A DNA stretch of 35,302 nt, taken from assembly GCA_947464415.1 (NCBI GenBank), contig CANHWU010000010.1, positions 1-35,302 of the forward strand, in the 5' to 3' direction. Made by a program: the position numbers and the translations under genes. Shown piece after piece: positions 12,873-35,302 of the stretch. Source of the stretch: Flavobacteriales bacterium. Lineage in GTDB: Bacteria > Bacteroidota > Bacteroidia > Flavobacteriales_D > Sanyastnellaceae. The notes under the pieces were generated by a model. It had not been told where the DNA came from, did not search any database, and worked only from the letters and a program-made list of their open reading frames with translations. The stretch's first letter is position 1. The number at the start of each line of letters is the position of its first letter.

Positions 12873-13886
12873 TCGACTGACCAAGTGAAGTGGCATTTCG
12901 CCCTTTCCCTTGAGCATCACATTCCCCAAATCCTCAGTCCGATACAGACTCGACAACAAATATTTAGTGGCATCTGTAATGGCCACTTTCATTGGCGAGC
13001 TAGCACTTTCCACCCTTGCCGCAATATTGACATCATCCCCTAAAATATCATAAATAAATCTCGATTTCCCAATGATCCCTGCAATCACGCTACCCGAATG
13101 AATTCCAATCCTGCACTGCCATTTTACCTGTTGTTGCTCATTTCTCTTATCCAGAAACTCTACCATCGCCAAACCTGCATCTACTAAACGATTGGCATGA
13201 TCAGGATCTTCCTCTAGGATTCCGGTGGCCGCCATGTAGGCATCTCCAATGGTTTTAATGCGGGTTACACCGCGCTGGTCTGCAATCTCATCGAATGCAG
13301 TAAAAACATCCGTTAACTCAGCAAACAGCGTCTCTGGAGCGAGGGTAGCAGTAATTTTTGTGAATCCCACGAAATCGCAAAATAGAATACTCACATTTTC
13401 CCTTTTTTCCGGAGGATAGCTTCCCTCCCTGATCAACGAATCTATCACCTTCTCTGGCAATAAAATCTTCAAAAGAGATTCTGACTTTCGGCGCTCCAAT
13501 TGCAGATCTAAATGCGTTTTAATTCTTGCTTTTACAATCTCCGGATTAAAAGGTTTGATGATAAAATCAGCGCCACCCAATTGAAAACCCTTGGTTTCAT
13601 CCGCCACTTCATTCAAGGCCGTGAGAAATATGATTGGAATATTCTTGGTAGTTGCATCCTGTTTCAACTCCTCACAAACAGAAAAGCCATCCATTCCCGG
13701 CATCATAATATCCAACAAAATCAAATCAGGGGCGGGATTCATACGAGCAATTTCCAACGCCTTCTCTCCGGACTTAGCTACCTTTACTTTATACAAATCC
13801 TTGAGCAAGCTTGATAGAATTTGAAGATTTTCCACTGAATCATCCACCACCAGTAAAGTGGCTATCATTTCCTTCCCAGATATCAT
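12867..13886 (-). CDS. response regulator with class III adenylate cyclase output
   Basis: A protein of 339 residues. The receiver domain (about 8-125) has acidic Asp15/Asp16, phosphoacceptor Asp59 ([13 protein letters not shown]) and Lys111 (IIKPF). A short linker (PEKVIDSLI) leads to a class III cyclase domain (about 160-339): metal-binding Asp171 (FCDFVGFT) and Asp215 (GDAYMA), purine-selecting Lys211 (RIKTIGD) and Asp280 (YDILGDD), and transition-state Asn287 and Arg291 (VNIAARVES). The Lys/Asp pair points to ATP rather than GTP, so it should make cAMP when its receiver is phosphorylated. It overlaps the upstream hybrid kinase by four bases (ATGA), so kinase and cyclase are very likely one pathway. 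Confidence 0.93.
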
Positions 13887-19801: not shown

Positions 19802-20392
19802 CTACCATTCCACGATCGTAGCGCCCTGACCATATTGATGCCAGGCAGCATCCCGAGCATTACAATGTGGATAATAATCCTTGATTAATCTTCGAATCTC
19901 GGCCTTTAAAACTCCTTGTCCTACTCCATGGATAAAAACTATTTTTCTTAATTTATCCTTCATGGCTACCCGCATCATTCTCTCAAAATGTTCCAATTGA
20001 ACCACGATGATTTCGCCATTGGTCATGCCCTGGTGTTGAGGTAGAAGATGATGGATATGCAAATCCACCTCCATAGTTTCCCCTCTTTTCTTTTCCGATG
20101 AAGCCAACTCGTTTTTATAGAGTATCTTAAAATCTTTATTGATTTTATTCAATACCTTTTGATTACTATTTCTTTGAAACCTCTCCTCAATATCTTCATG
20201 AGTAAAATTGTATTGATATGATTCTCTGTTCTTGGCATCTACTAACACCAACTCAGCAAGCGGATGAGGAAAAGAAAAACCGCTTTCGTCTTCTACCATC
20301 GCTTGACCATCCTGAATAGACGTGATTGTGCCGCCACCGGGATCATTGAGAAAGCGAACCAGCTGACCTACCTTGAAACTTTCCGTAATCAA
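19802..20392 (-). CDS. Smr-domain protein (DUF2027/MutS2 C-terminal-like)
   Basis: The N-terminal part (FKVGQLVRFLNDPGGGTITS, PLAELVLVDA) is a small beta domain like that of Bacteroidota DUF2027 proteins. The C-terminal Smr domain (about 105-196) shows EVDLHIHHLLP, the HGVGQGVLKAEIRRLI motif and a final QYGQGATIVEW; Smr domains are nucleases or nucleic-acid binders, as in MutS2. The start is uncertain: the frame opens with TTG at 20390-20392 and has no upstream ATG, while an exact -7 promoter box lies at 20394-20401, which would put transcription start at or inside that codon. A leaderless start, an upstream promoter or a sequence error are all possible. It runs convergent to the DUF7935-like gene and divergent from the DUF4197 gene. 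Confidence 0.88.
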   Translation of the reverse strand: MITESFKVGQLVRFLNDPGGGTITSIQDGQAMVEDESGFSFPHPLAELVLVDAKNRESYQYNFTHEDIEERFQRNSNQKVLNKINKDFKILYKNELASSEKKRGETMEVDLHIHHLLPQHQGMTNGEIIVVQLEHFERMMRVAMKDKLRKIVFIHGVGQGVLKAEIRRLIKDYYPHCNARDAAWHQYGQGATIVEW

Positions 20393-20393
20393 A

Positions 20394-20401
20394 CAAAGAT
20401 A
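20394..20401 (-). promoter_or_regulatory. -7 promoter-like element before the Smr gene
   Basis: Minus strand TATCTTTG, an exact TAnnTTTG match directly before the TTG start codon of the Smr frame; identical to the tRNA-Ser(UGA) -7 box. No -33 box is visible. Confidence 0.3.
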
Positions 20402-20420
20402 AATACAAAGTGGTAAGGCG

Positions 20421-20428
20421 TATATTTG
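20421..20428 (+). promoter_or_regulatory. -7 promoter element for the DUF4197 gene
   Basis: TATATTTG, an exact TAnnTTTG match, ends 12 bases before the ATG at 20441. The TTG inside it is in frame and could be mistaken for the start. No -33 TTG at proper spacing. Confidence 0.45.
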
Positions 20429-20440
20429 AAAAAAAAGAAG

Positions 20441-21166
20441 ATGAAAAAAATAATTGTAGTCTTAGCAATAGTCACTCCCTTTCTCTGCTATTCTCAGAAT
20501 CTCAAAGATTTAAAAAACAAAGCCGAGCAAAAAGTTGCACAACCGGATTCCAAAACAAACTTTACTGAAGAAGAAGCGGCCAAAGCCCTGCGCGAAGCCC
20601 TCAAACAAGGGGCGGAAAAAGGAGCTGCTTTGGTAAGTAAATCAGATGGTTATTTTGGCAATCCAAAGATCAAAATCCCCTTACCCCCAGATGCCCGACA
20701 AAAAGAGCAGAAAATCAGAAGCATGGGTTTGAATAAAGAAGTGGATGATGCGCTATTATCCATCAATCGAGCTGCGGAAGATGCCGGTGCAAAAGCCAAA
20801 GATATTTTTGTCAAAGCTATACAAAATATGACGGTACGCGATGCCATTACCATTGTCAAAGGAAATGAAAATGCAGGAACGGAATATCTGAAAAAACAAA
20901 CCACTACTGCATTGCAAGCGGATTTCAAACCCGTTATTCAAGCCTCATGAGACAAAGTAGGAACTACCCAACATTATGGGAAAATAGTCACTGCATACAA
21001 CAAAATCCCCGGGGTTGAGAAACTCAACCCAGACCTAGCAGATTATGTTACTCAAAAAGCCATTGAGGGCTTGTTTGTTATGGTCCAAGAGGAGGAAGCG
21101 AAAATCCGAAAAGATCCCACGGCCAGGGCCACGGAAATCCTTAAAAAAGTATTTGGTAAAAACTGA
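20441..21166 (+). pseudogene. DUF4197 exported protein interrupted by one in-frame TGA
   Basis: From the ATG at 20441 a signal peptide (MKKIIVVLAIVTPFLCYSQ) leads into a typical DUF4197 protein: EEEAAKALREALKQGAEKG, SKSDGYFGNPKIKIPLPP, NRAAEDAGAKAKDIFVKAI and ADFKPVIQAS. A TGA at 20948-20950 (codon 170) then stops the frame. Reading on in the same frame gives DKVGTTQHYGKIVTAYNKIP, NPDLADYVTQKAIEGLF, EEEAKIRKDPTARATEI and a true TGA at 21164-21166, which is the normal DUF4197 C-terminus. Full length would be 241 codons plus stop. The family usually has S-L-D-K-V-G here, so a TTA-to-TGA single change explains it. It is either a fresh nonsense mutation, a sequencing error, or, less likely, readthrough. 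The periplasmic/surface function of the family is unknown. Confidence 0.85.
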
Positions 21167-21255
21167 TTTTTCAAAAAAGTTTGAAAAACTAAGTTGGCCT
21201 ATTAACAAAAAGGAATATTAAACCTTGTTACATTCGCAACCTACAAAAAACAAAA

Positions 21256-21687
21256 ATGAAGACAGCATTAGAAAAAATCATCACCGTAACAGGCAAGGGC
21301 GGACTTTTTAAAGTGATCAGTGGCGGAAAGGGGGTTGTTATTGCCGAATCCTTAGTAGACGGAAAAAGACACCCAATCCACTCTTCTCAAAAAGTAAGCA
21401 CATTATCCGACATCAGCATGTTCACCTATGAGGAGGATGTTCCTTTAAGAAGTGTTTTAGAGAACGCGAAAAATGTTTGCGAAGGGAAAATGGGACCCTC
21501 TCACAAAGCGGAGGGAAAAGAGATCAGAAAAGCCATGGAGCAAGTGCTTCCAGAATATGATAAGGAGAGAGTGTACGAAAGTGATTTGAGAAAATTCTTT
21601 CAATGGTACAATTTGCTTTCCGAAAAAAACATGTTGGATTTTGAAGAGGCCGCCGATGCACCATCGGAATCTGTTGGTGAAGAATAA
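21256..21687 (+). CDS. DUF5606 protein
   Basis: A protein of 143 residues matching the Bacteroidota-specific DUF5606 family as I remember it: LEKIITVTGKGGLFKVIS, AESLVDGKRHPIHSSQKVS, LSDISMFTYEEDVPL, VLPEYDKERVYESD and KKFFQWYNLL-like (LRKFFQWYNLLSE), with an acidic Ala/Glu-rich tail. The N-terminal half is a small beta domain, the C-terminal half helical. It is cytosolic, single-gene, and ends at a strong terminator. Molecular function is unknown. Confidence 0.85.
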   Translation: MKTALEKIITVTGKGGLFKVISGGKGVVIAESLVDGKRHPIHSSQKVSTLSDISMFTYEEDVPLRSVLENAKNVCEGKMGPSHKAEGKEIRKAMEQVLPEYDKERVYESDLRKFFQWYNLLSEKNMLDFEEAADAPSESVGEE

Positions 21688-21814: not shown

Positions 21815-24631
21815 TTACTTAGCCACTGAGAAACGAACCACCTGAGTCTCATTGTTGTGAATCAAAGCAATGTTATACAATCCGCTAGACAATTTCTCAT
21901 TGAAGGAAAGTGTTTGCATCAAACCATTTTCTGCCACCCATGCTTTCTCCAATACTACACGACCTGTTGCATCCAAAACCATGGCTTTTACCACTCCATC
22001 CACATCGGTCCAAGCTACGTTAATAGCTGATCCATTGCTGGGGTTAGGATAAACATTGATATTGGAGAGAGAAGTAGAAAATACCTCGTCACTGTCATTA
22101 TTCGCTACCATTCCGGCTGCTCCCAATGTTTTTACACATGATGCATTTCCTGCGCAAGTAGACGATGTTGGAGTGGTACATCCTCCACTAGTTGGAAACC
22201 ATGAATCCACAGCCAAAGGAGAATCCACTGCTGTACCTGTAGAAAATGAAATCCCATCCAAGTGAGCCGCTCTGATCCAAACGTCATAACGCTTACCCGT
22301 TGCAATTCCAGCAACGCTGCTCAATCCCACCAAACGAGAGGCTCCTGCTCCGCCCGCTACATAGGCAGATAGCCCTTGAGTTGGGAATACTTCTTTGAAT
22401 TTCCAGTCATAACGACTAGTTCCACAAACGGAACGATTAGTGGCTAAAAAGCTAGTGATATTCTTAGAAGTTAGGTTACACAAATCAGTGCTACGCACCG
22501 TCAACGCTGTTTCATTATTCAAACCTACTGGAGATGCCACATTTCCAAAGGCAGTAATGTTATTGTTATTACCCGCAGCATCCTTAAGATTGTAAACCAC
22601 ATCTACAGTAACATAATAGGTAACCGGAGCAGAGGTTAAATTAGCAGGTAAAATCCTGCCCAACTGACAAATGGTATAACCTGTTCCGTTGGCTTGTGGA
22701 GGAATAGAAAAGGTCCAAGCTGGAGTTCCAGTACCGAATGTACCTGAAGCCACCGCCGCATTTGCCGCAGCCTGATCTGCCCATCGCTTTACAACATAAC
22801 CTGATGCCTGTGAACGGAAAGCCGCTTTGAAGTTAGCACACGTGTTGCTGAAAAAACCAGTACCTCCTGTAAAAGGACCAATATCCGCTTGGCTTCCTCT
22901 CAAGAAGGAAATGCTCAAAGAACAAGTGCCTGGCGTATTGTTGTTGTTGCGCACACACACATAATACGTTTGACCCGGTATACAGTTTCCATAATACAAT
23001 ACTTCACTACCCGCATCTGGAGCTGGATTGATCGTAGCCGCATTGGCAATGGTTACGTCATTCTCTGTTACCAATGGAACTAACTCAACTCCAGTGGTTG
23101 CTGGTGCACTGTACAATCCTAAATCATTATCATCTGCAACACCAGAAGCACCTGTCAACGCAATGCGAACCGCGTTTCCAGTGGCTAAGAAGCTATACCA
23201 TCTATCATTGCCTATTCCAGGACTTTCTACAGAATTGGTTCCAGTGGTTAAATTGACAGAAATAGAAGATTGAACTCCGAAACCAAATTGACCGATACCA
23301 GAAACAGCTACAGAAGAAGAAATACCACCGGCACCAGGACATACCAAGTCAGCACCTGAACAATCTTCATCTGTTCCATTACCACAAACTTCAGTAGCGG
23401 TTGGATATGCATTTGCGTTTGCATCGTTACAATCCGTGTTATTGGTAACATAACCAGCTCCTGGCGAAGCACAAGCATTGGTAGCTGCACCTGCACCGTA
23501 AGAATCGTTATCACCATCCACATAATACGCTGTGGGTGTATTGACGGTAATCGTTACGCTATTGCTGTTTACTGCACTCAAGGATTGTGCATCACAACCT
23601 GGAGTCATGGAACAACTTACAACGTCAGCATTGATCAATGAAGTACTTGTAAAAGTAGCTGCATTCGTTCCAACGTTATTTCCGTTTACTTTCCACTGAT
23701 AAGAGGGATTAGTACCGGCGTCAGTAGGTGTCGCGGTGAAAGTCACGGTCTCCCCTGCACAAATGCTGCTGATACTCGCCACCATGCTCACAGAAGCCGC
23801 AGCCCCTGCAGTACGGATCAATGAGGCATTGGTCAATTGACCTGCACCTGCGTTAGAATGTACATAGTTCACTGCCTGTCCAGATGGATTCAACAATTGA
23901 ACATTGAGGTTAAAAGTAAACACTCCATCTGTTGTGAACTGACCAATCAAAACTTTATTGGAAGCACCCGCTCCCACGATACCGCCCAATGCTGCCAATG
24001 ATCCATTGGATACAGTGATATTTCCCAAACTGTTACCCGCAGTCAAAGCATCCAAAATGGATCCTCCCATACCCAAGGTATTTATACTCACCACGGTTGT
24101 TCCTGAACTGGCTAACATACCATCTTTTCCGGCGGCTCCTGTGATCATATCACCATAACAACCTCCTAAAGTATTTCCCAATATTCCATTGGTGTGAGGA
24201 TTGGCAATGGTGCCATCGTTATCCTCATCCTTTGGAACTCCTACCTTGCCAGTTGCAGCCAGACCTGCTGTCAACCATGAGTCAATCATCGCAGTGTGCT
24301 TCTTGGTATTCGCCACAGAAACATTGGGTCCTGTTTGAGAATCATAATTTTCATCGTTGTAAAAGCTTGTAGTTGTATTGAAAACCAAATTCTGAGTTGG
24401 CGTTCCAAACAATTGAACAAACTTATAACCGACAGCCATATCTACATAGACACGATAGGTGACAGCACCTGCTGAAAGCGGAACTGTATATCCCTCAGTG
24501 CTGGTATATGCGGCATCTGCTGCGCTTGCCTGGTAGTATCGCTCTACGATGATACCCTCCAGTCCTTGAGCCATGGTAGTTTGAGCCAAACACACCATTC
24601 CCAGGCCTATGAATAAATTCTTTATTTTCAT
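21815..24631 (-). CDS. large secreted VEKYY-domain protein (paralogue D) with Ig-like and MopE modules, T9SS type A
   Basis: A protein of 938 residues. A signal peptide (MKIKNLFIGLGMVCLAQTTM, AQ) leads to the domain shared with three other proteins here (about 23-285): GLEGIIVERYYQ, AGAVTYRVYVDM, TSFYNDENY, MIDSWLTAGLA, EDNDGTI, AALGGIVGAG, IGQFTTDGVFTFNLNVQL. Next come an Ig-like domain (SSICAGETVTFTATP), one MopE repeat (YYVDGDNDSYGAG to EVCGNGTDEDCSGAD), a domain resembling pre-peptidase or carbohydrate-binding beta-sandwiches (about 450-600), a Cys-containing region, and a T9SS sorting domain (NVYPNPSNG to the end). The ATG at 24629-24631 is chosen because the signal peptide starts there. 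It is the last gene of the minus-strand cluster and the longest paralogue. Function unknown. Confidence 0.88.
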   Translation of the reverse strand: MKIKNLFIGLGMVCLAQTTMAQGLEGIIVERYYQASAADAAYTSTEGYTVPLSAGAVTYRVYVDMAVGYKFVQLFGTPTQNLVFNTTTSFYNDENYDSQTGPNVSVANTKKHTAMIDSWLTAGLAATGKVGVPKDEDNDGTIANPHTNGILGNTLGGCYGDMITGAAGKDGMLASSGTTVVSINTLGMGGSILDALTAGNSLGNITVSNGSLAALGGIVGAGASNKVLIGQFTTDGVFTFNLNVQLLNPSGQAVNYVHSNAGAGQLTNASLIRTAGAAASVSMVASISSICAGETVTFTATPTDAGTNPSYQWKVNGNNVGTNAATFTSTSLINADVVSCSMTPGCDAQSLSAVNSNSVTITVNTPTAYYVDGDNDSYGAGAATNACASPGAGYVTNNTDCNDANANAYPTATEVCGNGTDEDCSGADLVCPGAGGISSSVAVSGIGQFGFGVQSSISVNLTTGTNSVESPGIGNDRWYSFLATGNAVRIALTGASGVADDNDLGLYSAPATTGVELVPLVTENDVTIANAATINPAPDAGSEVLYYGNCIPGQTYYVCVRNNNNTPGTCSLSISFLRGSQADIGPFTGGTGFFSNTCANFKAAFRSQASGYVVKRWADQAAANAAVASGTFGTGTPAWTFSIPPQANGTGYTICQLGRILPANLTSAPVTYYVTVDVVYNLKDAAGNNNNITAFGNVASPVGLNNETALTVRSTDLCNLTSKNITSFLATNRSVCGTSRYDWKFKEVFPTQGLSAYVAGGAGASRLVGLSSVAGIATGKRYDVWIRAAHLDGISFSTGTAVDSPLAVDSWFPTSGGCTTPTSSTCAGNASCVKTLGAAGMVANNDSDEVFSTSLSNINVYPNPSNGSAINVAWTDVDGVVKAMVLDATGRVVLEKAWVAENGLMQTLSFNEKLSSGLYNIALIHNNETQVVRFSVAK

Positions 24632-24647
24632 ATGCTTTGTATTAAAT

Positions 24648-24667
24648 GGGGTGGGTTTCCCCACCCC
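24648..24667 (-). other. GC-rich intergenic hairpin
   Basis: Minus strand GGGGTGGG-GAAA-CCCACCCC: 8-bp perfect stem with a GNRA-type loop in the 49-base gap between the beta-helix gene and paralogue D. On the minus strand no T run follows, so it is not a standard terminator in the direction of the genes; it could be a processing or mRNA stability element. On the plus strand it is followed by TATTTTTATTTTTTT and would work as a terminator against antisense transcription. Confidence 0.6.
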
Positions 24668-24680
24668 TATTTTTATTTTT

Positions 24681-26423
24681 TTAGTTACAAGATTGACCGA
24701 AGGCTGGAGCGAAGATCAAGAAATCCAATACATCCGTTACACCATCATAGTTCAAGTCAGTTGGACAAGCTGCAACACCTTTAGTAGCACCTACCAATTG
24801 AGAGTACGTCCAGTTTGACAACCAGTTTTGACCAGGATTTGAAGAGAATGCACCACGGAAAGGAGCTGGCTCGAAGAAGCCATCTACTGGGGCCGTTGGA
24901 CAACCTGATACAGACAAAGCTGGGTTTGGAATCACATCATTTTTAGCCGTCCATGTATTAGTGGCGGTATTCACAGTATAAGTATAATCAAAACCAGGAA
25001 GGGTGTTACCCGCTACGATAGTGTTCATATCTGTTGTAACAAACTGAGTGTAATCAGCAGTTCCAACAGCTTGTGGTGTACCTGTTCCTTGGTTAGATCC
25101 AGAGGCATTGATGGTGATAGGAGTGGTTACATTGACGAAAGTATTACACTTTACTTTAAAGGACTGCGATCCGTTTCCTGCTGAAGCAGAAGCAGGACCT
25201 GGAATATTGGTCCAATTGTGCCATGCCTCACCACCAGCGGCATACGAACGAGTACCAGAAATACTCTTTTGGATATTCATACCATTTTTGAAGTTAGCGA
25301 AAAGGGAATTGTAGATTTCACCTTCTGTCAATTCCTTTGCACAGATACCCGCCAAAGAGGTGTTGTCCGCTGTAGTGGTAGATTTGGCATTACCAATGCA
25401 AGTAGCGTTGTAGATAATGGGATGTGATCGGGGTGTATTGTTTGATTTATTGTCATCTGAATCACACTCAAAACCATTGTCACTATCGATGCTCCAGTTA
25501 GCCGAGTTGTCATCCTTCATACTGAATAAAAACTGTGCCTTGCCTGTCCAACCATGATCGTAATCAAAACCATCATCATTTCCAAACAAAGTAGTACAAT
25601 ATTTCAAATTTACAGTACCCCCAAAAATCTCAATATTGTCATCCGCGCATGAAACAATTTCTATGTGCTCTATGACAGTATTGCGCCCTACAGAACCTAA
25701 AGTTAAACCATTGATCTCACCACCCAAAGCCAAAATAGCCCCTGAATGACGGATAGAAACATAACGCATGATACCGGAATTATCATCATCATTGAATGTC
25801 TCACCTAAAGCTAAATTCACTCCATATTGATCTTGTGGGTTGGTAGTTTGAAAACCTTCAATGGTACCCAATCCATCAGCCACCGCCAATTTACCTGCGG
25901 TACCTACTGTAAAAGGACCATTGGCCGCCAATGTCAAATTATTATGAGCATAACCATTGACAACCACTCCGCCCCATTTCCCTTTATTGGTCACTGGGTA
26001 AGTACCATCCATAGGATCTTCTTGCGCCGTAAATACAATTGGGCAAGACTCTGTTCCATTGGCGATAATATCTCCACCTCTCATGATTACCAAAGCCGTC
26101 GCCTCTGCTGGAACCGCGTTAGGAGCACCTTTGATTACGGTGCCTGGTTGAATAGTCAAAGTTTGTCCACTAGGAATGTAAATCTTCTTGTCTAAAATGT
26201 AAGTCTTGTCGCAAGTAAAATTGGCACCCAATGTCATCTCCCCTCCATAGGTATTGGGGATGGCCGTGTATCCTGGCATAGAAGATACAATTACCTCAGT
26301 TCTTGATGCAACAGGAGGACAACCACACTCTGCACCTAAATTAGATTGAGCCTTCAATCCTGAGAAAGCTCCGATAGCCAAAGCAACCGCCATGGACTTG
26401 AATAGAATTTGTTTGTTTTTCAT
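24681..26423 (-). CDS. secreted right-handed beta-helix-like surface protein with Cys-flanked dockerin-like tail
   Basis: A protein of 580 residues with a signal peptide (MKNKQILFKSMAVALAIGAF...KAQ). The body has the spacing of a parallel beta-helix: ILDKKIYIPSGQTLTIQPG, TVIKGAP, ALVIMRGGDIIANG, WGGVVVNG, MRYVSIRHSGA, TVIEHIEIVSCADDNIEIFG, VNLKYCTTLFGNDDGFDYDHG. The C-terminus CPTDLNYDGVTDVLDFLIF followed by APAFGQSC holds one EF-hand/dockerin-type loop (Asp, Asn, Asp, Asp, Asp at positions 1, 3, 5, 9, 12) between two Cys. No T9SS PNP-type domain is visible, unlike its neighbours, so how it leaves the periplasm is open. It lies two genes downstream of the TonB receptor-paralogue C pair. Such beta-helix proteins often occur beside TonB receptors in this phylum (recollection, not tested). 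Confidence 0.85.
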   Translation of the reverse strand: MKNKQILFKSMAVALAIGAFSGLKAQSNLGAECGCPPVASRTEVIVSSMPGYTAIPNTYGGEMTLGANFTCDKTYILDKKIYIPSGQTLTIQPGTVIKGAPNAVPAEATALVIMRGGDIIANGTESCPIVFTAQEDPMDGTYPVTNKGKWGGVVVNGYAHNNLTLAANGPFTVGTAGKLAVADGLGTIEGFQTTNPQDQYGVNLALGETFNDDDNSGIMRYVSIRHSGAILALGGEINGLTLGSVGRNTVIEHIEIVSCADDNIEIFGGTVNLKYCTTLFGNDDGFDYDHGWTGKAQFLFSMKDDNSANWSIDSDNGFECDSDDNKSNNTPRSHPIIYNATCIGNAKSTTTADNTSLAGICAKELTEGEIYNSLFANFKNGMNIQKSISGTRSYAAGGEAWHNWTNIPGPASASAGNGSQSFKVKCNTFVNVTTPITINASGSNQGTGTPQAVGTADYTQFVTTDMNTIVAGNTLPGFDYTYTVNTATNTWTAKNDVIPNPALSVSGCPTAPVDGFFEPAPFRGAFSSNPGQNWLSNWTYSQLVGATKGVAACPTDLNYDGVTDVLDFLIFAPAFGQSCN

Positions 26424-26647
26424 AACATTTTTTGGTTAGTGATGCAAATCTCTATCACGCATGATGCTTTTGATTGAATGAAACATTATGAAAGCATTAA
26501 AAAGGAAACGGGTTATTTAGCACATCGTTAACGAATGCCAATATCCATTTTATGAGAATGAGAACTGAATAATAAGCGCTATTCACACCTACTTAACAAT
26601 CAGAAAGGTAAAAAGAGTAATCGAAAAAACGGGACGAAAAAGAATGA

Positions 26648-27331
26648 CTATTTCCTTTTACCGAGACTAAGTCCTACACCGCATCCCCAAGGATGAATGC
26701 TCCATGCCTCTTGAGTTCCCAAAGGCTGAACAAAATAATTGCCCTGCAAAAAAACTCCACCATACCAATGAGCCGGTAATGCCCATTGCCAACCTAATCT
26801 GAGCTGTGCAGATAAAGAACTTCTTTGAAGACCCTCAGAAATCTCTACCCTTTGCGATTGATTCATCCCTAAGACCTGGTAAGTGCGTGAAGCCTGGAAT
26901 ACAGCATTCCAATTCAATCCACCTTGGATGAAGAAATTCCTATCTTCGTTTTGACTCACTTGATACTTGATCAACAAAGGAATACTCATCCATTGATAAT
27001 CATTGCGCATGGACAACATATTTGGGAGTGAATCCGCATTGTACCGCTCTCTCTTGGTTGTCCAAAAAGCACCTGTACACAACCACCATTTTTGATTCAA
27101 CTTTCTAGAAGCCAAACAACCCAGAGAAGCACCCATTGCGGGTTGAACCATTTGATTCTGCTTCAAAGTCAAAGCATCCCAATCTGCACCACCCGATTGG
27201 TAAAAAAAATCAGTAGCCTCAAAACCAATATTACCCTCCATAGACCAACGCAAAGTGTCTTTTACCTGTGCCTCTGACTTCAAGATAGTGAAAGAAAATA
27301 TTAATACAAAAAAAACGAACGTCTGTTTCAT
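26648..27331 (-). CDS. small outer-membrane beta-barrel candidate
   Basis: A protein of 227 residues. The ATG at 27329-27331 begins a signal peptide (MKQTFVFFVLIFSFTILKSE); the frame reaches up to 27388 but that part overlaps the upstream gene. The mature part alternates polar and aromatic residues with turns (SMEGNIGFEATDFF, KWWLCTGAFWTTKRERYN, RNDYQWMSIPLLIKYQV, FFIQGGLNWNAVF, AQLRLGWQWALP, WYGGVFLQGNYFVQPLG) and ends GCGVGLSLGKRK, as in PorT-like or OmpW-like 8-10 strand barrels. No family is certain. It follows paralogue C by 34 bases and may belong to the same transcript. About 224 bases without a gene follow before the beta-helix gene; I saw no certain promoter or terminator there. Confidence 0.75.
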   Translation of the reverse strand: MKQTFVFFVLIFSFTILKSEAQVKDTLRWSMEGNIGFEATDFFYQSGGADWDALTLKQNQMVQPAMGASLGCLASRKLNQKWWLCTGAFWTTKRERYNADSLPNMLSMRNDYQWMSIPLLIKYQVSQNEDRNFFIQGGLNWNAVFQASRTYQVLGMNQSQRVEISEGLQRSSLSAQLRLGWQWALPAHWYGGVFLQGNYFVQPLGTQEAWSIHPWGCGVGLSLGKRK

Positions 27332-27365
27332 GTTTATTTTTATTTCGGTGCGATGTGGATAAATA

Positions 27366-28694
27366 TTAGATTCTGACCAATAATACACTCACTTGATCCG
27401 TTGTACTTTTTAACAACACATAATACACGCCTGGCTCCCAATTGGAGGCATCTAAATTTTCATTAAATACCCCTGCAAACTGATTCAAATCAGCCTGAAA
27501 CTTTCGGATACCCATAGCACTGTACACCTCGATGTTCACATCATCCTTTTCCAATACAGAAGCCTGAATTGAAAATACACTCTGCGCGGGATTAGGAAAC
27601 ACATTGAGAGCTAAGTTAGACTCACCTAATTGAGGACAAACCCAATCAATATCTCTTCCACCACAATCTCCTGGAAAGCAACAAAGTTCTTCAAAGGAAA
27701 CATTCGCTTCGGCAGAATAATTGCACGCCAAAGTATCCATACATCCAATAATGGCCAAAGTTTGACAAGCACCTTCTTCCTCACAAATAAAGGCGGAATT
27801 GTACTCCAAATAATCACTGTTCATGCAACCGCATTCAAAAGGATAGGACAAAAATGGACTAAAAGTTTGACCTGATCCTAATAAAGTATCGCGTGCCACC
27901 AATTCCTGAGCAATCCATGCCGTATCCTGCCAAATTTCCAACTCCAAATTCAACTCAAAAGTTAATTCGCCAAGGGTAGTTAATTGAGCCAACAACACCA
28001 TATTGGTATCCGGTGATACTCCATCTATTCCCTGAGATGATTGAAGATAAAAATTCTCACTTTCAAAAACAGTTCCTTCCACTACACTGCCAAAAATGGT
28101 AGAATCTGATTGGGTAACAAAATCTTGAACACCGAAAGAAGTCCAGGTTACTGCCGCGAGATTCATGGTATCAATTCCATCAGACTCCGTTAAGGGTATC
28201 CCCGCTAACGTGTCATCATTGATCAATAACCCCGATAACACCATCTCACTTCCGCCATCATTGTTGACACCTCCGATGAATGAACCATCCATATCGTACT
28301 CCTTTGGAATTCCAAAAAATAATTTAGAACCTTGTTTGGCCAATTGCCCGATGGTCAAATACGTATCCAACGCAGTGGTATTCTCTGATAAAAAAACTTT
28401 CGAAAAATCTTTACCAAAGGATTGTCCTTGACTTTTATTATTAAAAAAAGGCTGAGTGCTGCTTACGAAAAAGGGATGACCACTGGTTCCAAACATTCTC
28501 TTGATACGCGTATTCGGTAGTAAATCGGCGTACACTCTATAAGTTACACTCCCAGGAGCAATCCCACCACCTGTGGTATCAGTTGCATCATTCGCATCGC
28601 TGATGTAATACTTTTCTACCACTAATCTTTCTAATTGCGAGAATGAAGTACTCGCAAATAAAAAAAGACATACAACTAAAACAATATTCTTCAT
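27366..28694 (-). CDS. secreted VEKYY-domain protein (paralogue C) with GCMD module and T9SS type A domain
   Basis: A protein of 442 residues. After the signal peptide (MKNIVLVVCLFLFASTSFSQ) the shared domain runs to about 280: LERLVVEKYYISDANDATD, PGSVTYRVYADLLPN, MFGTSGHPFF, PFFNNKSQG, LDTYLTIGQL, DMDGSF, NMVLLAQLTTLGELTFELNL. It lacks the AALGGIVG box found in the other three, where it reads LQSSQGIDGVSPD. A Cys-rich stretch with one GCMDTLACNYSAEAN module and a T9SS sorting domain (NVFPNPAQSVFS, EPGVYYVLLK) complete it. It starts three bases after the TonB-receptor stop, so translation is probably coupled. Confidence 0.88.
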   Translation of the reverse strand: MKNIVLVVCLFLFASTSFSQLERLVVEKYYISDANDATDTTGGGIAPGSVTYRVYADLLPNTRIKRMFGTSGHPFFVSSTQPFFNNKSQGQSFGKDFSKVFLSENTTALDTYLTIGQLAKQGSKLFFGIPKEYDMDGSFIGGVNNDGGSEMVLSGLLINDDTLAGIPLTESDGIDTMNLAAVTWTSFGVQDFVTQSDSTIFGSVVEGTVFESENFYLQSSQGIDGVSPDTNMVLLAQLTTLGELTFELNLELEIWQDTAWIAQELVARDTLLGSGQTFSPFLSYPFECGCMNSDYLEYNSAFICEEEGACQTLAIIGCMDTLACNYSAEANVSFEELCCFPGDCGGRDIDWVCPQLGESNLALNVFPNPAQSVFSIQASVLEKDDVNIEVYSAMGIRKFQADLNQFAGVFNENLDASNWEPGVYYVLLKSTTDQVSVLLVRI

Positions 28695-28697
28695 GAT

Positions 28698-31600
28698 CTA
28701 TAATCGATAATTAACAGTCAACATGTAAGTAGTACCAAAGCGGAAAGAGTCATAATCATACCAACCACCTGTATTCTCAATTGTGCCATTGGCATTGACC
28801 CGATCTATTTTGTATGAACGTCTAACGGCTGTATTCAAAATATCGCGGATATTGACTCCAACGATCCAATGATCCCCAATATTCTTAGTGACTTTTACAT
28901 CAATCTGATTTCGAGGCATTTCATATACATCTGGACGACCTTTGATAGCACCCGCTATGACCAATCTTGGGCCTTGCACATTATAGCTTACAGTGGCTGT
29001 TAGGCCTAGCGAATCATTTTGATAAGTCAATATCGAGTTGATCAAATAAGGCGCTTGTCCGAACATTGGACGATTCAACGTGTCCAATGGAATATAGGTT
29101 TTAGATCCATCGTTGTTGATGATGAGATCCTTTCTGATGAACTGCGCTTGTGATTTAACCAAAGTAACGTTCGTACGAGCTTCAAAAAACTTACCCATTT
29201 GTTTCTTTCCTTCAAACTCCAAACCCATCACATTGGATTTTTCTATGTTCTCCCAAGTAATCCCTGCACTTCCAAATCCCATCTCAATATGATTCTTGAA
29301 ATTCTTGTAAAATGCACTTGCACTGATCATATCACCTCCTTTGAAATAAGATTCCGCACGTAAATCAAAATTATCCACTTTCACCACCTTCAAAGCGGAG
29401 TTACCATAGATCAATGTTCTGAACTCGTTATCCAAAATCGCAGCATCACTCAACTCGCGGATACTTGGTCGAGCAAGAGATTTGCTATAGTTCAATCTCA
29501 CGTTGGTTTGTGCCTTCTTCTCATTCTTCAACTTGTACACCACATTGATGTTCGGAAGCCAATCCAATTGGTTAATTTGACTGGGATTGACCAACGGGAA
29601 TCCACCCACATTTTCTCTTCTGATATCATCCTTTGCGTAACCTTTTTTGAAGTAGTCATCCACATCAACGAAGATATTGGTGTACTCTGCACGGATACCG
29701 CCGATCAAACGAATTCTATCGGTAACTTCAAAATCACTGGACCAATAACCTGAGTGAACATCACTGTTACCGAAGGAGTGATTTCTCAAATAATTATTTC
29801 TTACATAATAAAATTGGAAGTTGTCACCCATGACAAATTTATCAGGACTCAAATAAGCGTCTAAATCATCACTTTGCAAGGGATCAATGTTGGTGGATGG
29901 ATTAGCAAACAACTTATACTCATCATTGTCTATTTTTCTATAATTCTTTAGAGAACTGAGACCAAACATCCAAGTACGCTTTAAACCTTCTTTGGCCCAT
30001 TTTTTAATGGGTTTGGATGCATCCAATCGAGCATCCAACAAATCCTCGTTCAAATAGCGGTAGAATCTTCTGATACCTTCCCCAAAAGTAGGAGCAAAAC
30101 CATATCCCGTCACTTGATCATAGTTGATCAACCCAACATTAAATTGCGTTACTTTAAAATCAGGAGCGATGCTATTCCCTGTAGTATAAGAGAGATTGGC
30201 ATCCAATTTAACAGATGACTTAGGAAAATAATGCTGAGAGCTGAATTGAGAAACCAATTGCTTTCGCTGTTCATAGAAGATGTTATTAAATACCTCTACC
30301 TCCTCAAAAGCACTGCTGAAGGGTCGTCCATAATATTGGGCAACATCATTGATTCCCATGAAATTGGGCATCACCATTACAGAGGCCCTGTGATTTTCAT
30401 GAAATTTGTAAGACATGTTCAAAAGCGCATTCCAAGAATTCGTCTCTCGACCCAATTCGGCCCGGTCTTGACGGTCAATGGGATAATCCAATGATTCATC
30501 ACCCACCCGCTGGGAAGTACCATTGGGATCATAACGATAATTACTTCCATAACGGAAACCAACAAAAAAGCCTAGCGGTTTGCCAAACAATAGAACTTCA
30601 TTTCCGATGGTAATGTTCTGCGTGAAATTCATAGGAGCAATGCGCCTCTTGACATTCCAATTGTTGGCAAAACCACTTCCATAATCCGTACCTTCAGGAT
30701 TGATGATACCGTAAGCTGTGGGTTTGTATTGCTGATTGTACTGATTTCGAGCGGCAATAAAGGCCGCATCATCATTGATAGCCGTAGGCGCTAATAAACC
30801 CAATTCCACTAAACCTAATCTAAAATAAGCCTCCCCTTGAGCTGTACCATCCGCCCAGCCCGTAACACCTATGCCTTGATAATAATCCCCTAATCCCAAG
30901 GCCACCATTTCTTGATAGGTAGTGGGTGCGGTATTTGGAACTACCACATCATCATTGGAGCGGATACGCAATCCATTATCAAATCCTAAGAAATCCGTAC
31001 TACTTCTTTCACTACTCAAAAAATTCTTAAATGTTGTCTGGGCATTATATCCTAACTGACTTTCCACGCTCACCATCAATTTATCAGGATAATCCTTGGT
31101 CTCCACAGAAATATACGCGCCAGACCAATCGCTCGCCAATTGTGAATTTGCTGTTTTGGTAATGATAATATTGTCAATCAAACTGGAAGGAAAGATATCC
31201 AATTTGATATTGTTGGTCAAAGGGTCTAACGTAGGAATACGTGAGCCATTTAAAGTGGTTTTGACATAACGATCTCCAATTCCACGAACCGTAATCAAAC
31301 CTCCCGAAGTAGAGACTCCTGAAACCCTTGCGATGGCATTGACTACATTCTGATCACCCGTTTTCTTCATGGTTTCTGAAGAAATATAATCAATGGTGGT
31401 AGCAGAGTTCATTTTCACCTTCTCCATGAAACTATCATTGGATTTGATGATTTTTTCTTCAACGGTCAATGCAGCGCCTACATAACTTGCTGATGGCAAG
31501 GTATAATCTTTCACCAACACTTCGTTGTCTTTTAATGAAACTTTTTCAGTCAAATTTTGAAATCCCACCATCACAAAGTTCAAGGTATATACTTGGGCAT

Positions 31601-31790
31601 TGGGAAGTGACAATTCAAACAATCCATCGAAATCTGATTTCGCCAGATTCGATTGATTCTCCATCACCACCACCACTACTCCAAATACTGGCTCCCCCTT
31701 TTCATCCGTAATCTTACCCTTTATTTTACCCTGCCCAAAAAGTACATTGGCTAGGCAGATCCCTACAATCGCAACTAAAAAATGTTTCAT
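28698..31790 (-). CDS. TonB-dependent outer-membrane receptor with carboxypeptidase-regulatory-like N-terminus
   Basis: A protein of 1030 residues. Signal peptide MKHFLVAIVGICLANVLFGQ, then a carboxypeptidase-regulatory-like beta-sandwich (GKIKGKITDEKGEPVFGVVV, about 20-105), a plug domain (VNAIARVSGVS, GLITVRGIGDRYVKTTLNG, GAYISVETKDYP) and a long 22-strand barrel ending in MLTVNYRL. TonB receptors take large substrates (siderophores, glycans, vitamins) across the outer membrane with energy from TonB-ExbBD. No SusD partner and no FecR-type regulator gene lie nearby. The ATG at 31788-31790 is taken; the frame extends to a GTG overlapping the upstream stop. It is 11 bases after paralogue B and 3 bases before paralogue C, so it works with these secreted proteins. 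The substrate is unknown. Confidence 0.93.
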   Translation of the reverse strand: MKHFLVAIVGICLANVLFGQGKIKGKITDEKGEPVFGVVVVVMENQSNLAKSDFDGLFELSLPNAQVYTLNFVMVGFQNLTEKVSLKDNEVLVKDYTLPSASYVGAALTVEEKIIKSNDSFMEKVKMNSATTIDYISSETMKKTGDQNVVNAIARVSGVSTSGGLITVRGIGDRYVKTTLNGSRIPTLDPLTNNIKLDIFPSSLIDNIIITKTANSQLASDWSGAYISVETKDYPDKLMVSVESQLGYNAQTTFKNFLSSERSSTDFLGFDNGLRIRSNDDVVVPNTAPTTYQEMVALGLGDYYQGIGVTGWADGTAQGEAYFRLGLVELGLLAPTAINDDAAFIAARNQYNQQYKPTAYGIINPEGTDYGSGFANNWNVKRRIAPMNFTQNITIGNEVLLFGKPLGFFVGFRYGSNYRYDPNGTSQRVGDESLDYPIDRQDRAELGRETNSWNALLNMSYKFHENHRASVMVMPNFMGINDVAQYYGRPFSSAFEEVEVFNNIFYEQRKQLVSQFSSQHYFPKSSVKLDANLSYTTGNSIAPDFKVTQFNVGLINYDQVTGYGFAPTFGEGIRRFYRYLNEDLLDARLDASKPIKKWAKEGLKRTWMFGLSSLKNYRKIDNDEYKLFANPSTNIDPLQSDDLDAYLSPDKFVMGDNFQFYYVRNNYLRNHSFGNSDVHSGYWSSDFEVTDRIRLIGGIRAEYTNIFVDVDDYFKKGYAKDDIRRENVGGFPLVNPSQINQLDWLPNINVVYKLKNEKKAQTNVRLNYSKSLARPSIRELSDAAILDNEFRTLIYGNSALKVVKVDNFDLRAESYFKGGDMISASAFYKNFKNHIEMGFGSAGITWENIEKSNVMGLEFEGKKQMGKFFEARTNVTLVKSQAQFIRKDLIINNDGSKTYIPLDTLNRPMFGQAPYLINSILTYQNDSLGLTATVSYNVQGPRLVIAGAIKGRPDVYEMPRNQIDVKVTKNIGDHWIVGVNIRDILNTAVRRSYKIDRVNANGTIENTGGWYDYDSFRFGTTYMLTVNYRL

Positions 31791-31801
31791 AACTAAACCC
31801 A

Positions 31802-32929
31802 CTAAGATTTAACCAATCTCAAGACTCTTGACTTTCCAGACTGCTTCAAGTGAACCATATATACCCCATTTGACCATGCAGAGGTCTGAATACGAATTTG
31901 ATTTCCGTAAAAACGATCTATTAAAACACGTTGACCCAATACATCCACCACTTCTATTTGCATAGCCGCCATACTCAAAGAGTTGTTCAATAATACAACT
32001 TCATTATTAAATGGATTAGGATAGGCAGCGGCAGTCCAATCATTCACTGACATTATCTCATGGATCGCCACAGTTGAAGTATCTGTTGTATCCACGATCA
32101 CGTCCGATTCACTCACGTAGATCAACGTGGAATCAGTGAATTCAGTTGCCGATGGATCCTCCGCTACATAATTTTCACTTCCCCCAACTTGAGGCGTTCC
32201 CAATTGAATATTCAATTTAAAACTAAACACTCCATCTGTAGTAAATTGTCCCAACATCACTCTATTCTCAGCAGTAACGCCCACAATTCCTCCTAGAGCA
32301 GCGATTGCCCCATTATTAATCACAATAGAGTCACCCGCAGTTTGGTCTAAAATATCTAATTCTCCCGATATACCCAAAACGTTCAATGCAGTGGGAACAC
32401 CCGGCATCAAACCATCTCTCCCTTCGGTACCAGTAATGGCATAAGTCATAGGTACCACATTATTCACCAACAAACCTTGCAAGTTTCCAATAGTACCATC
32501 GGTATCCTCCTCTTTCAAAACTCCCATCAATCCAGGATTACCATTGGCCACAGCACCTATCGTCAGGTAGGAATCAATCATCTGCGTGTTCTTTCTTGTG
32601 TTATTGATACTGGTTCCCTGGTAATAAGGTACCCCGTAATTCGGATCATTGAAAAAAGCGGTTGTAGTATTGATCTCCAGAGGATGTCCTGGGGCACCAA
32701 ACATCTGAATCACACTATAGTTTGGCAACAAATCAGCATACACCCTGTAGGTAATCATTCCAGCTCTTAGAGGATACACAGCGCCATTTTCTGCCGCATC
32801 GGCAGAATCAGCCGCATCCGCCACATAATACTTCTCCACTATAATGGACTCCAATCCTTGTTGTGCTTTGGACTGCGTCGATATCACTCCACAAAAAATG
32901 GCGAATGCCATCCAACTGATCTTCTTCAT
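31802..32929 (-). CDS. secreted VEKYY-domain protein (paralogue B) with T9SS type A domain
   Basis: A protein of 375 residues: signal peptide (to KAQ at about residue 22), the shared domain to about 260 (GLESIIVEKYYVADAADSAD, AGMITYRVYADLLPNY, MFGAPGHPL, AFFNDPNYG, MIDSYLTIGAVANG, EEDTDGTI, GRDGLMPG, AALGGIVG, LGQFTTDGVFSFKLNIQL), a Thr/Ser/Asp linker, and a T9SS sorting domain (AAYPNPFNNEVVLL, VLGQRVLI, SNGVYMVHLK). It is the simplest complete version of the family: domain plus sorting signal. It lies four bases after paralogue A and 11 before the TonB receptor, in one operon. No known function. Confidence 0.9.
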   Translation of the reverse strand: MKKISWMAFAIFCGVISTQSKAQQGLESIIVEKYYVADAADSADAAENGAVYPLRAGMITYRVYADLLPNYSVIQMFGAPGHPLEINTTTAFFNDPNYGVPYYQGTSINNTRKNTQMIDSYLTIGAVANGNPGLMGVLKEEDTDGTIGNLQGLLVNNVVPMTYAITGTEGRDGLMPGVPTALNVLGISGELDILDQTAGDSIVINNGAIAALGGIVGVTAENRVMLGQFTTDGVFSFKLNIQLGTPQVGGSENYVAEDPSATEFTDSTLIYVSESDVIVDTTDTSTVAIHEIMSVNDWTAAAYPNPFNNEVVLLNNSLSMAAMQIEVVDVLGQRVLIDRFYGNQIRIQTSAWSNGVYMVHLKQSGKSRVLRLVKS

Positions 32930-32933
32930 TTTC

Positions 32934-33815
32934 TTATTTTTTTCTGATTTGTTTTTGTTGTTTCTTCAATTTTCTTTTTTCTGCTTTGGTAAGCGGACGA
33001 TAATAATTGACACTTGCCTTCAAAAGTGGAAGTAAGATTTCTCCCTCACCCGGTTGATCATAGACATATCGAACTGACTTTCCCTCGGGAGTTCTGATCA
33101 TGATATTCAAACCATAATTCAAATCACCTGCAGTAGTCAATTGCCCGATTAAAACCATATTGGAATGCAATGAATCCGCACCCACTGTACCCTTGCCTAA
33201 GGCAGCCCAAGCTCCGTTCTCCACCACTATCTCGTTGGTTTTACTATCAGCATGAATCAACTTCTTTTGCTCATCCATATTATAAAAAGTTGGAAAGGTC
33301 AATTTCTCATTTCTCACCAAACCATCTCTATCTTTGATAGACCATTGATTCCCCAGGGGAGATTGTAGAAACTGATCATTCCACTCAATTTCCAACCAAT
33401 CTTTGGTGGTATCCATAGAAAGCGGAACACCTAAATGATTCTCGCCTGCAGCTCCTACACTTAACCAGCTATCCAAATATGCGAGATTTTTGATGTAGGT
33501 CCTTTCAGGAATCATATTCGGATTAGCGTTACCCACTTCTACATGATTGTAAAATAGAGACGATGATCTAAAAAATAATGGATGCTGTGGGGTTCCATAA
33601 GCCACTTGAAAGCGATAACCTGGAAGTAAATCTAGATATACCCGATAGGTAACAGCACCTTCCGTTATCTCGCCTGTTTTGGACGGTACCGAAGCATCCA
33701 CTGCATTGACTCGATAAAATTCCTCTACAAAAATTCCTTCTATACCCACTATTTCTTGGGCGCCCATTTTAAAAAAAGCCAACAAGAAACAACCCGCAAT
33801 CCAACTCTTTTTCAT
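32934..33815 (-). CDS. secreted VEKYY-domain protein (paralogue A) without T9SS domain, Lys-rich tail
   Basis: A protein of 293 residues; the ATG at 33813-33815 is preferred to a GTG directly before it. Signal peptide (to MGAQ), then the shared domain over nearly all the rest: IEGIFVEEFYRVNAVDAS, EGAVTYRVYLDLLPGY, YGTPQHPLFF, LFYNHVEVGN, YLDSWLSVGAAGE, LGVPLSMDTTKD, DRDGL, AALGKGTVGAD, VLIGQLTTAGDLNYGLNIMI, RTPEGKSVRYVY. Unlike its paralogues it has no PNP-type sorting domain; it ends in a strongly basic tail (TKAEKRKLKKQQKQIRKK). It may stay in the periplasm or contact negatively charged lipids or polysaccharide (inference). It starts 15 bases after the repeat-protein stop and four before paralogue B. 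Confidence 0.88.
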   Translation of the reverse strand: MKKSWIAGCFLLAFFKMGAQEIVGIEGIFVEEFYRVNAVDASVPSKTGEITEGAVTYRVYLDLLPGYRFQVAYGTPQHPLFFRSSSLFYNHVEVGNANPNMIPERTYIKNLAYLDSWLSVGAAGENHLGVPLSMDTTKDWLEIEWNDQFLQSPLGNQWSIKDRDGLVRNEKLTFPTFYNMDEQKKLIHADSKTNEIVVENGAWAALGKGTVGADSLHSNMVLIGQLTTAGDLNYGLNIMIRTPEGKSVRYVYDQPGEGEILLPLLKASVNYYRPLTKAEKRKLKKQQKQIRKK

Positions 33816-33830
33816 CACAGAAATACTATC

Positions 33831-35302
33831 TTAGTGCGCAATAATGATTTGAATACTTCCACTCTCCCCTGCAATGTGTAATGTGTACATACCATTAGAC
33901 CAGTTGGAGCAATCAAATTTCTCAATATCCTGAGTAATGAACTGGACGAAAACTCTTCTACCTTGAGCATCCAAAACTATCAAGTCTTGGTTTTTGAAGC
34001 TATCCAAACCATTTACTTGAAATTGATTCATTGCAGGTACAGGAAATACGCTCAATTGGGTAATATTCAATTGCTCCACATCCACCACTTCGCCATCACA
34101 ATCTTCATCTATAGCGTTGTTAGGAACCTCCACTGCTCCCGGATTGACGGCTGCATTGGTATCATTACAATCTGTTGTATTAGGAGCACCGCATGCGGCA
34201 GGTACATTGGTACCGTATCCATCTTGATCAGCATCCACATACAATAATTGAGTATCATCACAATCAGCATTATCCAATACATAACCAGGATCTTGAGTGC
34301 AACTGCTAACGCTATTATTAGCATCACCAAAACCATCATTATCTTGGTCAGCGTAGTAGGTTGTCAATAAATTCTCATCCGCTATTCCATCACAATTTTG
34401 ATCAAAGCCATCGCACACCTCTGTGGCTCCCGGATTAACCGTATCATCAAAATCTAAGCAATCACCAGTATTCACAACACCGCACGCATCGATAACGCTA
34501 CTGCCATAACCATCTCCATCGGTATCCATATAGAGTATGGCATTATCATCGCAATCGAAGAAATTTTCGACATAACCCGCAGGTTGACTACAAGCAAAAG
34601 TCACATTATTGTTATCTCCAAATCCATCACCATCTACGTCAGCATAAAAAGTGATCTGCACAAACTCATCGATTTCACCATCACAATTATCATCCACTTC
34701 ATTGCACACTTCTGCCTGAGGATAGATACAAGTTCCATTATCCGTATTCGCCAAGGCATCGTAGTTACACGCTGATTGATCTAGACAACCCAAGACAAAT
34801 GGCAAACATGACCCATCCTCAGTATTCGCCGAAGGATTGTAGTTGAAGGCCGTAACATCAGTACAACCGAGGACTACTGCAATACAAGAACCGTCATTAG
34901 TATTGGCTTCTGCGTCATAGTTAAGCGCTGTAACATCAGTACAACCAAAAATCACTTCCAAACAAGAACCATCATTAGTATTGGCCGCAGCATTATAATT
35001 AAATGCAGTAGGATCTGTACAACCGAGCACTACTGCAATACAAGATCCATCGTTGGTGTTGGCTGATGGATTGTAGTTGAACGCTGTCGCATCTGTACAA
35101 CCCGACACTACTGCAATACAAGATCCATCGTTGGTATTGGCAGATGGATTATAGTTGAACGCTGTCGCATCTGTACAACCCAACACTACTGCAATACAAG
35201 ATCCATCGTTGGTATTGGCAGATGGATTGTAGTTGAACGCTGTCGCATCTGTACAACCCTACTCTACTGCAATACAAGATCCATCGTTGGTATTGGCAGA
35301 TG
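33831..35302 (-). CDS. GCTD-repeat and MopE-repeat secreted protein with T9SS domain (N-terminus cut; in-frame stop near edge)
   Basis: The C-terminal part of a large secreted protein. From the right edge it reads a partial and seven full units of the 26-residue GCTDATAFNYNPSANTNDGS type, then MopE-like Ca repeats (EVCNEVDDNCDGEIDE, DVDGDGFGDNN, DTDGDGYGSS, EVCDGFDQNCDGIADE, DADQDGYGTN, NAIDEDCDGE) and a T9SS sorting domain (LSVFPVPAMNQFQVNG to the end). A TAG at 35259-35261 breaks the frame between the first visible, partial unit and the next; the frame is open from 35258 down. Compared with the copies beside it, that unit carries two T-for-A changes (plus strand), one of which makes the stop. 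As no sensible start lies below it, I treat the stop as a likely assembly or consensus error at the window edge and the whole as one gene. It is the first visible gene of the receptor operon. Confidence 0.8.
34716..35302 (-). repeat. 78-bp tandem repeat array (GCTD units)
   Basis: Period 78 bp, seven full units and a partial one, each coding for 26 residues with two Cys and an NDGSC end. The last 2-3 units toward the right edge are almost identical at DNA level (units at 35085-35162 and 35163-35240 differ at two bases); units further in have diverged, and the seventh (GCLDQSACNYDALANTDNGT) is the most different. Confidence 0.93.

Follow-up and report, generated by a model that had tools for sequence, protein, structure and literature searches.

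The described loci most like the one reported here are PUSIII and PUSIV of Flavobacterium johnsoniae (Fjoh_0541-0549 and Fjoh_3851-3859; PMC8115612). Within Fjoh_0542-0546, PhoB, a TonB-dependent transporter (TBDT), and the hypothetical lipoprotein FII are induced by depletion of inorganic phosphate (Pi), and FI-FIII are reported to have a relative in Caulobacter, a low-phosphate lipoprotein (PMC8115612). The evident candidate for the latter is ElpS of Caulobacter crescentus, a surface or extracellular lipoprotein of phosphate starvation whose release depends on the type II secretion system (PMC2996285). Here we analyzed a 35,302-nt stretch of DNA from a Flavobacteriales bacterium of the Sanyastnellaceae (assembly GCA_947464415.1, contig CANHWU010000010.1, positions 1 to 35,302), hereafter the window, which derives from a 2.5-Mb draft genome of 93% completeness. 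The window encodes four secreted proteins, A to D, which share an N-terminal domain and are grouped around one TonB-dependent receptor. Sequence comparison suggests that these genes probably form one operon for a PhoB-controlled surface system of phosphate starvation, which would be delivered by the type IX secretion system (T9SS) and capture a polymeric phosphorus source; the link of the operon to phosphate is itself well supported, with comparative evidence of several kinds. The genes of the operon are as follows, with coordinates referring to the whole window:

33831..35302, minus strand: C-terminal part of D0, a truncated first gene with GCTD repeats (Pfam MopE, E 3.8e-20; Por_Secre_tail, 3.6e-7)
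32934..33818, minus strand: protein A, with an export signal (by inspection), the shared domain (~33012-33755), and a lysine-rich tail
31802..32929, minus strand: protein B, with the shared domain (~32114-32866) and a T9SS sorting domain (~31826-32023)
28698..31802, minus strand: TonB-dependent receptor (Pfam CarboxypepD_reg_2, E 1.4e-11; Plug, E 4.2e-10)
27366..28694, minus strand: protein C, with the shared domain (~27843-28646), a cysteine-rich GCMD-type module, and a T9SS sorting domain
26648..27388, minus strand: outer-membrane beta-barrel protein (OMP_b-brl_2, E 6.1e-7)
24681..26423, minus strand: right-handed beta-helix protein, without a T9SS sorting domain and with a single half-dockerin-like motif at its end (~24684-24767)
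21815..24664, minus strand: protein D, with the shared domain (~23810-24574), a PKD/Ig-like region, MopE, and a T9SS sorting domain (~21833-22054)

Like PUSIII and PUSIV, this cassette combines a TonB-dependent transporter with a related beta-helix exoprotein, includes T9SS-domain proteins (as in PUSIII), and has PhoBR or PPK-like neighbors; its receptor and beta-helix protein are closest to the pair that occupies the PUSIV position in other genomes. The cassette differs from both loci in having four to five shared-domain proteins, a FISUMP lipoprotein, and cohesin-like and dockerin-like modules. Its beta-helix protein is predicted to form a pectin-lyase-type right-handed beta-helix, as in the F-form FII, but ends in a half-dockerin and shows no evident lipobox (by inspection, no lipobox cysteine follows the signal region of the window protein); FII, by contrast, has been described as a lipoprotein. 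The ElpS study describes no paralogous domain proteins such as those of the cassette (PMC2996285). The cassette also resembles SusCD/PusCD loci in its receptor, with plug and CarboxypepD_reg domains, and in its surface binding proteins; unlike them, it lacks SusD/PusD and a hydrolase, and its surface proteins carry T9SS sorting domains. Since the operon has neither a SusD-like PusD partner nor a phosphatase or phosphodiesterase, it was not filed as a member of PUS I or II, and is instead classed as a variant among the TonB/beta-helix phosphate loci, marked out by its unnamed domain family.

Phosphate genes recur beside the cassette

Genes for PPK1, Ppx, Pit, PhoU, PhoR/PhoB, and PlcP-glycosyltransferase (PlcP-GT) were found to recur beside the cassette, in arrangements that differ between genera. 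In genome G006, PPK1 and Ppx come after the cohesin-like gene on the same strand, at spacings of 66 and 19 bp, as an extension of the operon, and PPK1-Ppx stands beside the cassette across the genus of G006. Elsewhere, the cassette lies between Ppx and PlcP-GT-PPK1 (G714, G645, and G685), follows Pit-PhoU at a distance of ~3 kb (G779), or has PhoBR divergent and adjacent (G653, G617, and G670) or downstream (G527). In searches with PF02503 and PF01384, several genera had PPK1 or Pit on the same contig as the cassette, no more than ~25 kb away. A histidine kinase/response regulator pair in G030 was considered as PhoBR and rejected, its kinase having a different N terminus and scoring below the PhoR threshold. 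Across 60 loci, 53 of 488 flank genes were phosphate genes, compared with 0 of 358 genes in 20 control stretches of the same genomes, and 23 of the 60 loci had such a gene in the flank versus none of the 20 controls; most queries for these counts were taken from, or first noticed at, the loci themselves. With the exception of PhoD and perhaps Ppx, the queries represent kinds of protein listed for the low-phosphate response of F. johnsoniae (PMC8115612).

The window operon appears to share this setting; its own contig begins within the first gene. A fifth copy of the shared domain was found on another contig of the same genome, C21 (L012:1-4800), just downstream of PhoU-Pit; C21 also bears an OprP-type porin, a second receptor and beta-helix pair, Ppx, and PPK1. 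The end of C21 and the start of the window contig (C10) both fall inside the same 26-residue GCTD repeat, and the terminal 56 bases of C21 are found at a single place in the window (35166-35221, minus strand), on a strand consistent with joining. This is the pattern that assembly graphs leave at repeats, and the two contigs thus appear contiguous. An in-frame TAG in the first repeat, near the window contig edge and upstream of the 56-base match, is possibly an assembly error. Judged from these contig ends, the fifth copy and the truncated MopE gene at 33831-35302 are very probably one large first gene, D0, and the joined operon would run PhoU-Pit-D0-A-B-receptor-C-barrel-beta-helix-D. In a genome of the same genus (G018), homologues of window positions 19802-21687 lie directly beside Pit-PhoU, in the order DUF5606-like gene-Pit-PhoU, and the cassette is absent, leaving an empty site. 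Taken together, the contig overlap and the empty site indicate that the window operon most likely lies directly downstream of the PhoU-Pit phosphate transporter genes.

Paralogy to a low-phosphate receptor and beta-helix pair

Four genomes (the window's own, G006, G617, and G645) were found to have a second receptor as the nearest paralogue of the cassette receptor, and the nearest paralogue of the beta-helix protein is encoded beside it. The window's own genome has this paralogue pair on C21; in G645, PhoB and PhoR come after it, and in G617 and G670 it lies between PhoBR and gene A. In three genomes of a single genus (f6/g27), it occurs in the order OprP-PhoR-PhoB-receptor-beta-helix, which matches Fjoh_0542-0546 in gene order, the receptor and beta-helix genes standing in the place of the low-Pi-induced pair Fjoh_0545/0546.

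PhoB-box-like repeats upstream of gene A

Direct repeats of the form TTAAY-N6-TTAAY were detected upstream of gene A in 16 of 37 regions and in 3 of 113 control promoters (p 6e-9), for a motif that was chosen by eye from part of the 37-region set and then counted there. The enrichment was specific to the 11-bp period, with no peak at periods of 8-10 or 12-16, and 11-bp phasing is that of known PhoB boxes. In the window's own genome, copies found later precede (i) phoU (L012:7384-7400); (ii) the fifth copy/D0 (L012:5095-5111); and (iii) phoB on contig C9 (L230:7270-7296), where tandem copies lie 40-65 bp upstream of the gene. A search of the open-access literature found no published Pho box of Bacteroidetes, no relevant report of cohesin/dockerin together with TonB, and no follow-up papers.

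The phosphate-gene neighbors, the promoter repeats, and the paralogy to the low-Pi pair all point to phosphate acquisition. Several findings weigh against this interpretation. At over half of the loci, the flank examined lacks a phosphate gene, and the Fisher p for the flank counts is too small because most queries came from, or were first noticed at, the loci and because loci of the same genus are not independent. No 11-bp repeat was found in the window, probably because the promoter lies beyond the contig end. In addition, Pfam searches recognized no phosphatase, phosphodiesterase, or nuclease in the operon core, and matched no SusD family among the operon proteins of the window and its relatives.

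Conservation of the operon and its predicted T9SS-exported proteins

By gene content and order, the operon is conserved over dozens of loci in metagenome-assembled genomes (MAGs), mainly of freshwater Bacteroidota. The usual order in most relatives, all on one strand, is A-B-receptor-C-FISUMP lipoprotein-barrel-beta-helix-D-cohesin-like protein. A close homologue of the receptor was found in 57 of the 58 domain-bearing genomes searched, typically as a single copy within the cassette; the exceptions in copy number were split fragments and, in a few genomes, a second, weaker match. The FISUMP gene (PF09603, E 1.7e-41) is present at 51 of 60 loci and is missing from the window, where the genes for C and the barrel overlap at 27366-27388; the barrel itself clusters with cassette barrels from 39 genomes. 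These results strengthen the proposal of an earlier note on this DNA that the locus is a dedicated surface system of T9SS-delivered subunits and one receptor. The open reading frames of A to D lie where that note had placed them, all on the minus strand and nearly abutting.

Delivery by T9SS would apply to part of the set and cannot apply to A in its present form. Por_Secre_tail was detected at the C termini of B (E 3.5e-12), C (E 5.8e-9), and D (E 4.7e-6), and scored above the Pfam cut-off in these three and in the D0 remnant, while the same search found no T9SS sorting domain in A, in agreement with the C-termini read earlier from the sequence. A lysine-rich tail is frequent at the C terminus of A orthologues, and D additionally shows a MopE motif and, as a weak match, a PKD-like region. 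A multi-pass membrane protein, protein O-mannosyltransferase-like by eye, was seen in or beside the cassette at L140:428-2263 (G670), in G737, and at L084, L113, and L114, and might glycosylate secreted proteins.

The shared domains had been read as a local expansion with domain shuffling. In the tree, A, B, and C instead form largely separate orthologue groups (7, 10, and 3 changes, compared with ~42-53 in shuffles), with the D group looser (20 changes versus 46). A, B, and C are thus positional orthologue groups across lineages, which makes the duplications old and leaves only the C-termini of D-type proteins as variable; a recent local expansion was ruled out by this tree and by the conserved gene order.

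An unnamed domain shared by proteins A to D

The shared domain spans ~250 residues, and all-against-all BLASTP of A to D gave E values of 4e-60 to ~1e-17 (computed at a database size of 1e6), which bears out the relationship of the four proteins. The closest pair is B-D (47% identity, E 4e-60), and the weakest matches are those of C to A and D (~1e-17). The count of four copies applies to the window, and the fifth copy lies on C21. The motifs listed in that reading are conserved among 114 homologues, across which E11, Y14, R41, D98, D121, D151-G152, N201, and Q207 are invariant. No match to the domain was found in Pfam, NCBIfam, or PDB sequences, and its profile met no characterized family.

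Domain searches retrieved 178 relatives from GTDB genomes, and the loci kept for analysis are almost all from MAGs labeled Flavobacteriales or Bacteroidetes, many of them named after lake samples. Among 394 genomes sampled across the phylum there were four matches, three of them strong, and an order-wide sample gave strong matches in four families. More distant relatives were detected at 98 and 68 bits, collinear across both halves of the domain, and many large secreted proteins from other genera matched it partially and more weakly. On these matches, the A-D domain is part of a larger unnamed superfamily. The domain was seen in big secreted proteins at L041 and L042 and, as weaker matches, in genera g17-g21; a genome can have as many as 28 matches, and no Pfam model covers the domain region in these members. 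The association with a TonB receptor that the earlier note had expected holds for the close family (57 of 58 genomes) and not for the wider superfamily.

The B domain was modeled by AlphaFold2 as a mainly beta fold (pLDDT 95.6). Foldseek returned nothing below E 0.1, and VIA-align gave mixed beta-sandwiches at Z ≤ 5.7, with Als9-2 best and type II cohesins next (weak, Z ~5, root mean square deviation [rmsd] ~4 Å); on these values a fold assignment was dropped. Homology of the domain to the cohesin-like protein encoded downstream found no support (hhalign, 0.1%).

Proposed function and alternative explanations

In the system that we propose, low phosphate would lead PhoB to switch the operon on; T9SS would export B, C, D, and D0 to the cell surface, and A would stay in the periplasm or be released. 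The ligand, the assembly, and the transport are inferred as follows. The shared domain, modeled as beta-sandwich-like, may act with the beta-helix protein to capture a polymer or complex that contains phosphorus, for which nucleic acid, polyphosphate, a phosphorylated glycan, or a lipid head group are candidates. Dockerin-like and cohesin-like modules, where present, may clasp the proteins together, and what is captured, whole or in fragments, would be drawn by the TonB receptor into the periplasm. Because the operon core has no recognizable phosphatase, hydrolysis would fall to enzymes encoded elsewhere; the phosphate released would enter via Pit and be stored as polyphosphate by PPK1/Ppx.

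The least unlikely alternative is a surface system for polysaccharide binding or particle attachment, in which the phosphate genes would be incidental or co-induced neighbors. AlphaFold2 modeled the beta-helix protein as a right-handed beta-helix (pLDDT 83), and VIA-align matched this model to beta-helix enzymes, polygalacturonases (Aspergillus niger endopolygalacturonase II), alginate lyases, and tailspikes at Z 17-20 and rmsd 3-4 Å over ~270 residues, a likeness that suits such a role, as do the Big_7 and Dockerin_1 domains of D proteins and the FISUMP domain of the companion lipoprotein; surface machines that bind glycans typically have beta-helix, FISUMP, cohesin/dockerin, and Ig modules. 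Nonetheless, the operon proteins matched no glycoside hydrolase or lyase family and no SusD, the phosphate neighbors recur in varied arrangements in several genera, and PhoB-box-like repeats are present, which together make this explanation unlikely.

Within the phosphate interpretation, the proteins could form a cellulosome-like phosphorus-capturing complex through cohesin-dockerin-like contacts, with the A-D domain as a divergent cohesin-like sandwich that binds polyphosphate or nucleic acid for TonB import; we regard this version as quite unlikely. Modules reminiscent of cellulosomes include Dockerin_1 in 26 of 41 D-type proteins, Cohesin in 19 of 36 proteins encoded after D in many lineages (best E 2.5e-6; with PKD and, in some, T9SS domains), and the half-dockerin-like motif that ends 63 of 63 cassette beta-helix copies and 0 of 5 non-cassette copies, the tails of the latter five resembling T9SS sorting domains by eye. 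Unlike cellulosomes, the operon has no cellulolytic enzymes, the Dockerin_1 and Cohesin matches are weak, some under the Pfam cut-off, and the window has neither a Dockerin_1 match in D nor a cohesin-like gene after it.

Structural proteins of the cell envelope, such as a surface layer or appendage made under phosphate stress with a receptor that merely signals or anchors, would accord with several paralogous subunits of mainly beta fold and with beta-sandwich adhesins among the weak fold matches; however, most chains have one N-terminal copy of the domain, unlike the tandem repeats of most surface layers, and the receptor has plug and CarboxypepD_reg domains as transporters do, so that we consider this improbable. 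Scavenging of metal, heme, or siderophores, with MopE/Ca-type motifs binding metal and the receptor importing the metal complex, is highly improbable: MopE motifs in D and D0 and acidic invariant residues in the shared domain and the beta-helix protein speak for it, but MopE was matched in 1 of 41 D-type proteins of relatives and no Fur-type or metal genes were recognized in the flanks read.

Two further features of the window lie away from the operon: a response regulator with an adenylate/guanylate cyclase domain beside a hybrid histidine kinase with receiver and Hpt domains (12867-16438), and a gene for a NeuB-family sialic/pseudaminic-type acid synthase (5980-7032) upstream of a secreted LTD/CHU_C protein.

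Phosphorus capture by a T9SS-delivered surface system would provide a functional frame for a domain that has no family record, and would add to the TonB and beta-helix phosphate loci known from Flavobacterium a surface system of nine genes, possibly with a cohesin-dockerin assembly. TTAAY-N6-TTAAY is a candidate PhoB box for these bacteria. The genomes that carry the operon belong mostly to uncultured freshwater Bacteroidota, and lakes are often phosphorus-limited.

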